Translations under genes and position numbers: made by a program
The notes under the pieces: generated by a model
The model's input: only the letters and a program-made list of their open reading frames with translations
What the model was told of the DNA's origin: nothing
Databases searched by the model: none
Assembly (NCBI GenBank): GCA_003003725.1
Contig: PVWI01000022.1
Span: 1 to 37,307 of the forward strand
Direction: 5' to 3'
Length of the DNA stretch: 37,307 bases
DNA from: a filamentous cyanobacterium Phorm 6
Lineage (GTDB): Bacteria; Cyanobacteriota; Cyanobacteriia; Cyanobacteriales; Microcoleaceae
In this document: positions 7,583 through 37,307 of the stretch, piece after piece
How the letters are laid out: the number at the start of each line of letters is the position of its first letter
Position numbering within the stretch: position 1 is the first letter of the stretch

Positions 7583-8314
7583 ATGGTGCTACAAGACCAT
7601 TTTCACCCGCCGCTGTCGGTGCGCCGTCACTGGCACGCCTTTCACAACGCCTGGGCGACTTACATTGCATCCGATTTGAATGCCAAATTACCCGCAAATT
7701 ACTTTGCCGAACCCAACGTGCAGTTTGGGATTGAAATTGATGTAGCAGCTTTTGAGGAACCTCTACCGGAGTTTGATTGTCCAGAGACGGTAATTCGTTT
7801 GCCAATAGATTTCCAAAACAATTGGCTGCCGCCGCCAGCCCAAACAGTGCCTTTTTTACCTGCTACGGAAAGCGTGCAAATCAGTATTTTTAACACTGAA
7901 GGTGGCCCGGTTTTGGCCGGTGCAATTGAATTAGTAAGTCCTGCAAACAAAGATCGTTCTACTCATCGCGGTGCTTTTGTTTCTAAGTGCGAGACGTATT
8001 TGCGGCAGGGAATTGGGTTGGTAATAGTTGATGTCGTGACGGGAAGGAAGGCAAATCTTCATAATCAATTGTTAGCCCGTCTGGCGGAAGGAAGTGCTTC
8101 GCCCTTCGACGCTGAACTCTATGCTACAGCTTATCGTCCGATCGAGCGATCCGGCAACCAATGCCTCGATATTTGGCAGGAAAAACTGGCTGTGGGGTGC
8201 GAGCTTCCTACTTTACCGCTGTGGCTGCGGGGCGAGATTTGCTTGGCTGTGGAATTAAATCATATTTACGATCGAACTTGCCGAGAAAACCGAATTGCTG
8301 TCAGCAGCGCTTAG
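7583..8314 (+). CDS. DUF4058-like conserved protein of unknown function
   Basis: Predicted 243 residues, soluble, no signal peptide. The N-terminus has RRHWHAFHNAWATYIASDLN, the type of 'W-x-x-F-H-x-x-W-x-x-x-I-x-x-x-L' opening seen in DUF4058 proteins. The centre has GAIELVSPANKDR followed by AFVSKCETYLRQGIGLVIVDVV. This E-x-x-SP-x-N-K followed by a Lys-containing helix also resembles a PD-(D/E)xK-like core, but that is only a suggestion. Function is not known. The stop codon lies inside the first copy of a 40-base repeat (8305-8344), so the last residues (SSA) are encoded by the repeat. Confidence 0.6.
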   Translation: MVLQDHFHPPLSVRRHWHAFHNAWATYIASDLNAKLPANYFAEPNVQFGIEIDVAAFEEPLPEFDCPETVIRLPIDFQNNWLPPPAQTVPFLPATESVQISIFNTEGGPVLAGAIELVSPANKDRSTHRGAFVSKCETYLRQGIGLVIVDVVTGRKANLHNQLLARLAEGSASPFDAELYATAYRPIERSGNQCLDIWQEKLAVGCELPTLPLWLRGEICLAVELNHIYDRTCRENRIAVSSA

Positions 8315-8389
8315 TATCAGGACTGAAGTCCTCACTACGAACCTGTTATCAGCGCTTAGTATCAGGACTGAAGTCCTCACTAAGAACCT
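8305..8389 (+). repeat. Tandem pair of 40-base repeats with palindromic GGACTGAAGTCC core
   Basis: Two nearly identical copies, 8305-8344 and 8350-8389, are separated by GTTAT. Each begins CAGCGCTTAGTATCA and continues with the core GGACTGAAGTCCTCACTA. The core and its flank also form the inverted repeat at 36964-37030. The first copy contains the stop codon of the upstream gene. The pair fills the gap between two convergent genes. Confidence 0.9.
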
Positions 8390-16716: not shown

Positions 16717-17401
16717 TTATCTTGTTTCCGTACTGCACTCGGAATGATCATTTTCTGGGTGCAGTGCGATCGTCTCGATCGTCAATAGAGTATGATTCCG
16801 ATACCAGCGGATTTGATGCCATACCATTTATCAAAAGTCATGCAGCAGTAATACTAGGGTGCGCCGCCATTACAAATCCTTAAAAAAATCGACTTTTAGG
16901 GTAGCGATGCACCCGAAAACTACCGCTAAAAATTATCCGCGTTTATCTGCGTTTATCTGCGGTTCGCTTCCCTACCAATTCCTCCCCTTTAAACATATTT
17001 TTTTGAACAGATAATTTAAAAATCGCCTTTTTTTGGGGTAAAAAGCTTGACTTAGTTGACATTATAAGGTATTATTTGAATGATTGGAATATTGGCAATT
17101 TTAAAATTCAATTTTATACTCGTATTATTAAAATAATACCCCAAAAGTCAACTTAAATCAATAGGTAAAAAATTCTTTTTTTTGCGCGGCGATTTACAGC
17201 AGCAAAAGCCATGCAGGAAAAAATGGCGATCGTCAGTTTGAAGCTGCAAGCGATCGCCAATTAAAATAACCCAAGTAATCATTAGTAATAATGTTTGATC
17301 GTTCGGACTTTAGTCCGAACGATCAAACCAGTCATAAAATGGCGATCGACTGATTGGTTTGTGTTAATATGCTAAAATATCCAAAACCACGCGGTAATTA
17401 A
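16717..17401 (+). other. Non-coding, repeat-rich gap after ispH
   Basis: I see no gene in these 685 bases. Contents: a stem-loop just after ispH (ACTGCACTC 16732-16740 with GGGTGCAGT 16757-16765, no T run); GCGTTTATCT decamers near 16940-16965; TTTTGGGGTA near 17032 and its inverse TACCCCAAAA near 17146 on either side of a very AT-rich segment of about 105 bases; HIP1-like sites near 17226 and 17251; and a perfect palindrome at 17293-17328. It could contain the promoter of the next gene; no box is convincing. Confidence 0.5.
17293..17328. repeat. Perfect 17-bp-arm palindrome with GGACTTTAGTCC centre
   Basis: GTTTGATCGTTCGGACT and AGTCCGAACGATCAAAC are exact inverses with only TT between them. 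The centre GGACTTTAGTCC is like the GGACTGAAGTCC core of the repeats at 8305-8389 and 36964-37030. No T run follows, so it is not a typical terminator. It lies 74 bases upstream of the next gene. Confidence 0.85.
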
Positions 17402-36492: not shown

Positions 36493-36937
36493 GTGCTAGC
36501 ATTGGCAGGATTTACGCCAATCTCCAAGCAGACGGCATCGCTATTTTATCCCTGACGCCAAATGTCAAACCTTGAGAATTCATACCATCATTTCGGAGAG
36601 TTTTTAGCTTCACTCCAGACGGTAGAGAATCAGCAATGCTGAAGTACAAAACTGATTTTAATCAATCAATATTCTTGGTAACAAATCACGAATTTCAAAA
36701 AGAACTAATCCGCACCGTCGGAAAATTTATAAACTGTCAATTTGACCCCATAAATCCTCAGCTTTACTGCTGGTTAACCAGCCGGAAGCCCGGGCAAGAG
36801 TTTTTCCGAGCAACTTACTCTCGAAGCAATTAATTTACAGACATTTGCAGTAAACTTAAAAAATGCAGCCGTATCTAATAATCTTTCCTCAACAGAAGAA
36901 TTGCCTTTAAAAGGATTTCGCCCGCGCTGGCTACCCT
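36447..36937 (+). pseudogene. Possible decayed gene in two frames
   Basis: One plus-strand frame reads YWDGWIWGNLGASIGRIYAN to a TGA at 36573-36575, then continues open in the same frame (EFIPSFRRVFSFTPDGRES onward, with an ATG at 36636) to a TAA at 36831-36833. From about 36777 another frame reads on (SEQLTLEAINLQTFAVNL, ending GFRPRWLP) to a TAG near 36937. The composition looks protein-like, and one stop plus one frameshift would join the pieces. The family is unknown and this may be chance. Confidence 0.3.
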
Positions 36938-36963
36938 AGAAAATGAAAAATAAAAAGATTAGA

Positions 36964-37030
36964 TAGGTTTGTAGTGAGGACTTCAGTCCTCTCTCATTTG
37001 ATGCGGACTGAAGTCCTCACTACAAACCTA
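36964..37030. repeat. Perfect 26-bp inverted repeat with GGACTGAAGTCC core
   Basis: The arm TAGGTTTGTAGTGAGGACTT... (36964-36989) is the exact inverse of 37005-37030, with a 15-base loop. Each arm contains the self-complementary core GGACTTCAGTCC / GGACTGAAGTCC. It is related to the repeats at 8305-8389. A partial third arm (TACTACAAACCT) follows at about 37030-37041, next to the stop codon of the last gene. Confidence 0.9.
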
Positions 37031-37042
37031 TACTACAAACCT

Positions 37043-37307
37043 TTATTTTCCGGCATAAGCCCCCATCCGTTCTTTGATAAACCGGATATAAAAATGCCTG
37101 AAAGTAGACTTAATCACCCGCGGCATCCCAAAGTCGATCGGCATCATATTTTCCGGCAACTTCCAATCCAAAACCTTGAGACTTTCCGGGTGCAAAAGCG
37201 GAAAATTAATCGCCTCTAAATTTGAGCAAAGTCCCAATTTCATCGCCGCAGCTACAGTCGGAACCAGCGCCGGATCGACATTAATAATTTCAACTACCGT
37301 TCTATCC
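37043..37307 (-). CDS. C-terminal fragment of a minus-strand protein, possibly DUF362-like
   Basis: The frame is open from the right edge to a TAA (minus strand) at 37043-37045, about 87 residues visible; the start lies outside the window. It begins DRTVVEIINVDPALVPTVAA and continues with MKLGLCSNLEAINF, LKVLDWKLPENMMPIDFG and ends with RFIKERMGAYAGK. The pattern of a 'DP-x-x-V-PT-x-x-A' helix followed by 'G-x-x-S-N-L-E-x-I' recalls the C-terminal part of DUF362-type proteins, but I am not sure. The stop codon abuts a dispersed palindromic repeat. Confidence 0.45.
   Translation of the reverse strand, partial: DRTVVEIINVDPALVPTVAAAMKLGLCSNLEAINFPLLHPESLKVLDWKLPENMMPIDFGMPRVIKSTFRHFYIRFIKERMGAYAGK

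Follow-up and report, generated by a model that had tools for sequence, protein, structure and literature searches.

A GTAG-tagged REP/REPIN family and a predicted REP-associated transposase in a filamentous cyanobacterium

Repeat sites of the window and their counterparts in relatives

The window analysed here is the whole stretch of 37,307 nucleotides taken from contig PVWI01000022.1 of the filamentous cyanobacterium Phorm 6. It carries a short hairpin repeat (REP) at three places, once as a complete REPIN, and these sites comprise the following features.

36966-37028: complete 63-bp REPIN, GGTTT...AAACC, two REPs head to head with the GTAG tags outside, matching the genome REPIN consensus
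36971-36989, plus strand: left REP, GTAGTGAGGACTTCAGTCC, by sequence match
36990-37004: 15-nt spacer of the REPIN, common to both copies on contig C297 by sequence comparison
37005-37023, minus strand: right REP, with GTAG on the minus strand, by sequence match
8298-8387: tandem duplication of a 45-bp unit made up of one REP and native flank, the two copies being 93% identical
8320-8338, minus strand: REP with an intact GTAG tag
8365-8383, minus strand: REP with a mutated tag, CTAA where the intact copy has CTAC
8312-8314, plus strand: TAG stop native to the upstream gene (7583-8314), not derived from the REP
17293-17328: untagged perfect palindrome with the REP core and 17-bp arms

A sequence-only reading of this DNA had placed the repeat core at several loci, with a tandem pair near 8305 and an inverted repeat at 36964, and both observations were confirmed. 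Indeed, the core GGACTGAAGTCC is found at 8320, 8365 and 37005, its reverse complement at 36978 and GGACTTTAGTCC at 17305; the tandem pair corresponds to 8298-8387, and the inverted repeat has arms of 27 nt (36963-36989 and 37005-37031) which are 100% complementary and have 15 nt between them. Positions 37019-37044 read ACTACAAACCTAT followed directly by ACTACAAACCTTT, and a copy of ACTACAAACCTTT without its first base or two also occurs in two relatives, G052 and G043. This motif may be the end of an older REP next to which the REPIN was inserted.

The frame at 36500-36939, ending 26 bp before the REPIN, is broken in the own genome: the stop at 36937-36939 closes a frame of 54 codons including the stop, with no ATG, which is not an intact gene here. 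Five of the seven relatives examined (G052, G011, G033, G036 and G057) carry an open frame of about 500 codons whose last residues are identical or almost so, and 36937-36939 is therefore a true gene end; no such frame with a matching end was present in the other two, G054 and G026. Thus, the statement that the element abuts the stop of the last gene holds for the gene end, as seen in five of seven relatives, and does not hold for the gene itself, which is broken here. On the other side of the REPIN a minus-strand frame stops at 37043-37045, 14 bp away, so that the element lies between convergent gene ends. The relatives show at this site another GTAG hairpin (GTAGTAGCGGTTTCAACCGCC, G052), a decayed REPIN (G050), one end only (G054) or a chimera (G043), and no clean empty site was found among the relatives compared, most of which lack the left flank. 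A second GTAG hairpin family, GTAGTAGCGGTTTCAACCGC, occupies 25 places in the own genome (at most one mismatch), and one of its members sits in the gap of G052 (L069) that matches window position 36966.

At the 8305 site no repeat is present in G042, G059 and G033 (in G033 only the next 130 bases are covered), and the gene ends in AGC-GCT-TAG there too, so that the TAG at 8312-8314 is native. The repeat is thereby ruled out as the source of the stop codon at 8314, and the contrary claim, that the 8305 copy supplies this stop, has to be withdrawn: the duplicated 45-bp unit includes native flank. Since G057 (L105) has a single copy of the junction with the same downstream flank, the simplest reading of the pair at 8298-8387 is that repeat and flank were duplicated later. 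The corresponding gap in relatives (L099, L100, L104) holds various simple tandem repeats (GGGAGAG, TAACCAA, CTTCCTT, CATAGGG) and is thus highly variable with or without REPs.

The 17293 element, previously noted as a related palindrome, is indeed a perfect one over 17293-17328, but it is not a canonical copy since the GTAG tag is absent. REPINs or arrays occupy this site in G052, G053, G036, G043 and G026, several relatives having a variant arm, GATCGTTCGGACT, or a relative of it. With up to three mismatches allowed, a search of the genome finds the palindrome once more, on C287, next to a hybrid REPIN that carries this same arm. An independent palindrome at 17293 was rejected, as the genome has only two perfect copies and relatives hold REPINs or arrays there; judged from these sequences, the palindrome probably derives from a variant-arm REPIN that has collapsed. 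Positions 17018-17182 hold a dispersed repeat, about 165 bp long, with many matches in the own genome and across the genus, most of them at 70-78% identity; it is unrelated to the REP and seems to be a further mobile or dispersed element.

Copy number, consensus and placement at gene ends

In the own genome (G000; 6,644,697 bases in 526 contigs) the 19-bp GTAGTGAGGACTTCAGTCC has 199 exact copies, rising to 576 when T or C is allowed in the loop (TY), with no match of the reversed control in either case. Head-to-head REPINs of full consensus number 72 (reversed control 0), the same 72 being found on both strands because the pattern is palindromic, and the window unit is one of them. These genome-wide counts bear out the suggestion of a spreading hairpin made from the window. 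In a sample of 42 stretches of this genome (732,399 bases, mostly picked for holding a copy), 272 copies were found with at most three mismatches, 96 of them exact; the reversed pattern gave 0 matches and 20 shuffled patterns gave 1 in total. Some contigs, for example C241, end inside REP arrays, and the assembly thus probably undercounts the copies.

The 235 copies with distinct flanks share the conserved block GGTTY-GTAG-TGAGGACT-TY-AGTCC, with exact GGTT in 180 of them; the base 3' of AGTCC is mostly T or G, and conservation fades a few bases beyond the block. The GTAG positions are 98-100% conserved, a figure that is partly circular as the copies were picked by this consensus. The REPIN consensus is GGTTY-GTAG-TGA-GGACT-TY-AGTCC, followed by a spacer (7-32 nt as searched) and the inverse. 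Neighbouring copies no more than 120 bp apart form 181 pairs, of which 81 are head to head, 75 head to tail and 25 tail to tail, and 31 of the 90 clusters comprise 3-16 REPs, many of these clusters being tandem arrays. At L033 3838-4199, L174 12654-13010 and L158 9567-9823, arrays of 8-11 REPs show regular periods of 34-68 bp.

Exact GTAGTGAGGACTTCAGTCC occurs in 22 of 59 family genomes, all of them among the 27 of the own genus, where counts range from 0 to 611. A restriction of the repeat to the genus holds within the family for the TC loop (22/27 genus members, 0/32 others) and fails with the TY loop, as 15 of 192 class genomes outside the genus carry 1-44 copies. When REPIN DNA was searched in distant mode (E≤1e-5), no phage match was obtained and a single plasmid match was found, in Oscillatoria nigro-viridis PCC 7112 (80.6%). 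Along with Planktothrix in the same family and a RAYT homologue labelled Microcoleus, this match suggests that the cyanobacterium is probably of the Microcoleus/Oscillatoria type.

The placement of the repeat was assessed against genes called by a simple script, in which open frames were scored by codon use. Seventy-six of the 90 clusters fall in called gaps, 3 lie inside genes and 11, including the window REPIN, are at stretch ends or have no called neighbour. Among the 76 gap clusters, 35 are in convergent gaps versus 16.2 expected by gap length, 39 in tandem gaps versus 37.7 and 2 in divergent gaps versus 22.0. Moreover, a stop codon is found no more than 50 bp away from 50 of the 76, compared with a mean of 11.2 (sd 3.1, highest value 23 in 2000) under random placement, so the preference for gene 3' ends that the window had suggested extends to the genome sample. 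In tandem gaps the stop is the nearer side in 26 of 39 clusters, and in five copies the GTAG tag itself provides a TAG stop.

Mobility of the repeat and its link to a transposase

The 63-bp REPIN of the window is identical at 63 of 63 positions, spacer included, to C297 11411-11473 and 11645-11707, in opposite orientation. Beyond the unit, the window and C297 sequences have a single T in common on one side and differ from the first base on the other. Because the immediate flanks are common to both C297 copies, these are probably one insertion duplicated locally. In the sampled stretches, 26 consensus REPINs have 20 different spacers, so that a shared spacer marks a shared origin. Presence or absence was scored for three clusters on contig C196 (sites A, B and C) by searching 12 relatives and counting a relative if both flanks were found. 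The array of site C is absent in all eight relatives counted (G047, G052, G030, G017, G042, G026, G050 and G046); at site B the repeat family is present in two of eight (G046 and G052) and absent in six (G030, G026, G058, G017, G054 and G042); at site A it is present in all three (G046, G053 and G026).

PF01797 has two matches in the own genome, on C184 and C241. The latter, C241:13169-13768 on the minus strand, encodes a protein of 199 aa which is the single RAYT of the genome. It scores 98.1 bits against NCBIfam NF047646 (REP-associated tyrosine transposase; cutoff 80) and also matches Pfam Y1_Tnp, and among PDB sequences it matches TnpA_REP 4er8 (E 3e-10) and no other at E≤0.01. Its N-terminus carries PPHRPPH, its tyrosine motif reads YIHNNP, and NHYH and W[YH] are present; NHYH and the Tyr of YIHxNP (H85, H87 and Y146) are invariant in 15 of 15 aligned homologues. 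Upstream, 64 bp from the RAYT start, lies a REPIN array that continues as far as the end of the contig; downstream, a decayed REP is found some 12 bp past the stop codon of the gene. The idea that a RAYT might be found in this genome thus proved right, with the same repeat on its flanks.

RAYT orthologues of at least 91% identity exist in 6 of the 59 family genomes, and these carry 199 (G000), 371 (G011), 496 (G036), 611 (G043), 128 (G053) and 99 (G054) copies of the repeat, whereas counts of 0-156 (median 5) were obtained for the 21 remaining genus members counted. Copy number is higher with the RAYT (U=124, p=2e-4), in a test that ignores phylogeny. In a tree of 29 genomes built on two window loci (G059 and G060 being without a copy count), three sister pairs with versus without the RAYT all differ in the expected direction: G053 128 vs G030 24, G036 496 vs G033 156, and G000 199 vs G052 35. 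Many copies are found without a close RAYT in G033 (156) and G048 (82), and G058, G030, G046 and G052 have 17-35 copies yet no orthologue of at least 91%. A recent loss would explain the copies of G033, and a RAYT may have been missed in fragmented assemblies.

The hairpins beside the transposase vary with the protein. Fifteen RAYT homologues of the family, of 52-100% identity, were compared. The six loci of at least 91% have an AGGACT stem, G049 (67%) has AGCACT and others, G021 (62%) has GGCACT plus one other, and AGCCCT is found in four genomes, with RAYTs of 58-59%, from the genus to which Planktothrix belongs; all hairpins of these family loci have GTAGT and a two-base loop. By a strict test, the tagged hairpin is absent at 3 of the 15 loci (L045, L050 and L051). 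Among the named loci, which are the best 80 of 393 confirmed homologues, 38 have a tagged hairpin within 400 bp of the RAYT and 42 have none by the same strict test; tagged hairpins reach a density of 3.2 per kb within 400 bp of the 80 genes vs 0.08 per kb beyond 1 kb. A tagged hairpin with a two-base loop lies within 600 bp at 50 of 95 loci; over all of these 50, protein and stem distances correlate at r=0.60, a value reached by 0 of 9999 permutations, and the 37 dereplicated loci give r=0.55 (0 of 9999). Without L197 (a duplicate of G053), L267 and L271 (of another build), the values are r=0.61 for 47 loci and r=0.57 for 35 dereplicated ones. RAYT divergence thus tracks the sequence of the flanking hairpin.

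Mobilisation, a possible RNA role and known systems

Taking together the observed copy number, unit boundaries, presence or absence in relatives, linkage to the RAYT, co-occurrence, co-divergence and 3'-end bias, we consider it probable, at roughly 0.88, that this is a GTAG-tagged REP family which is mobile mainly as REPINs and would be mobilised in trans by the single predicted RAYT on C241. By analogy with the TnpA_REP literature, the RAYT, as an HUH tyrosine transposase, would recognise and cleave the single-stranded REP with involvement of the GTAG tag, and the REPIN might be copied as a single strand into new sites. The 3'-end bias would then result from the loss of insertions in genes and promoters and not from sequence targeting. 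Tandem arrays may grow by local duplication, through replication slippage or unequal exchange, and REPIN copies would decay once the RAYT is lost.

Another transposase might move the repeats as MITE-like non-autonomous elements, for example an IS200/IS605-like TnpA on C184. The genome does have one other Y1 transposase match, C184:35726-36070, beside frames that by eye resemble TnpB in two pieces. However, no copy of the repeat, with up to four mismatches, lies in the 6 kb around this gene, whereas the RAYT is flanked by it, and hairpins built alike but with altered stems flank the RAYTs of relatives. The C184 transposase was therefore rejected as the mobiliser, and we regard a MITE-like origin as very improbable. 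That the palindromes arose by chance, short inverted repeats being common, is practically excluded, as the reversed and shuffled controls, with 0-1 matches against 199-272, refute it.

Alternatively, the hairpins might be RNA 3'-end elements of the host, such as terminators or mRNA stabilisers, which selection and recombination would maintain and copy, the RAYT being incidental. Their distribution would suit such elements, with 35 of 76 clusters convergent, 2 divergent and 50 within 50 bp of a stop, and so would the stability of the REPIN as RNA, which folds at -49.5 kcal/mol. The folding energy of single-stranded DNA is -4.4 kcal/mol for one REP and, for the complete REPIN, -28.4 (plus strand) and -29.4 (minus strand), with z-scores of -13.0 and -10.9; the REP at 8312-8343 alone folds no better than shuffles. 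Against a host element stand the gain and loss between near relatives, the range of 0-611 copies within one genus, the 63-bp identity on different contigs and the linkage to the RAYT. The terminator scan, run on the window site, lends it no support either: it returned one weak match to a lax consensus where 0.6 is expected from shuffles, and the tail of this match, TCTCATTTGA, is not a clean U-tract, so that the REPIN is not supported as an intrinsic terminator there. We therefore judge a purely host-derived element quite improbable.

It is less improbable, although still doubtful, that REPINs, once moved by the RAYT and retained where genes end, might serve as RNA 3'-end hairpins at a substantial share of convergent genes. 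If this were true, the hairpins would bar 3' exonucleases, and changes of copy number within the genus would rewire transcript ends. Cyanobacteria are reported to be without Rho, and in the passages of a 2026 study that bear on this point (PMC13289151), for Synechococcus elongatus signatures of intrinsic terminators are given for only 22% of transcription units, with REP-like stabilising 3' hairpins largely absent. Given the reported absence of Rho and this 22%, the question of an RNA role is worth asking, and a cyanobacterium with hundreds of gene-end REPINs offers a natural contrast to Synechococcus elongatus.

The preferred reading, a REPIN family mobilised by its RAYT, also has a wider interest. 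Copy number ranges from 0 to over 600 among species of a single genus, and it differs between sister species that have the RAYT and those that lack it; REPIN gain, bloom and decay after transposase loss thus become directly testable outside proteobacteria. A literature search, which left most subscription journals outside its reach, found no title or abstract opening that describes this cyanobacterial REP family, and the core string appeared in literature text only in papers with titles on human disease or cells.

Pseudomonas REPINs, as treated by Bertels and Rainey in 2011, reportedly consist of two inverted REPs and a spacer that move as a unit and are linked to a RAYT. The present family resembles them in its paired inverted REPs, spacer and RAYT and differs in sequence and host; it also differs in its larger clusters, about a third of which (31/90) go beyond a pair, many as tandem arrays. 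With the E. coli REP/TnpA_REP system, as presented in the relevant parts of PMC8266576 and in PDB 4er8, it shares a GTAG tag with a hairpin and an HUH tyrosine transposase. According to the same parts, TnpA_REP binds single-stranded REP and the part of GTAG in cleavage varies between systems; E. coli REPs have a required stem bulge, whereas the consensus of the own genome has none.

The transposase probably belongs, judging by its motifs, to RAYT subclass 2.8. In the sections of PMC6006769 that treat this subclass, it is cyanobacterial and is likewise characterised by NHYH, W then Y, a proline-rich N-terminus and flanking 5' GTAG REPs; its table lists YIHYNP where the C241 RAYT has YIHNNP, and YIHYNP is found among the homologues of the latter. 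Among the matches listed, relatives of the RAYT with at most 65% identity occur outside cyanobacteria, for example in Chloroflexi and Planctomycetota, and relatives of the subclass outside cyanobacteria are already noted in nr in those sections.

The closest account is that of the GTAG super-family of REPs, whose cyanobacterial families are GTAG-12, -15 and -16 in the relevant sections of Di Nocera et al. 2013 (PMC3733652). GTAG-12 is reported there in filamentous cyanobacteria, and the cyanobacteria of section 12 are Anabaena, Nostoc and Cyanothece. A gene-end bias is described, and the tags often provide TAG stops, as five copies do in the own genome. The present repeat further agrees with the super-family in its unpaired GTAG end, short stem, TY loop, head-to-head dimers, gene-end location and RAYT. 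In contrast to these sections, where head-to-tail dimers are absent or rare in most genomes, such dimers make up 75 of the 181 neighbouring pairs here, and the conserved unit includes GGTTY outside the tag. Compared by description, the repeat could be GTAG-12 or a close relative. Thus, by the features tested, it belongs to the GTAG REP/REPIN class with a RAYT.
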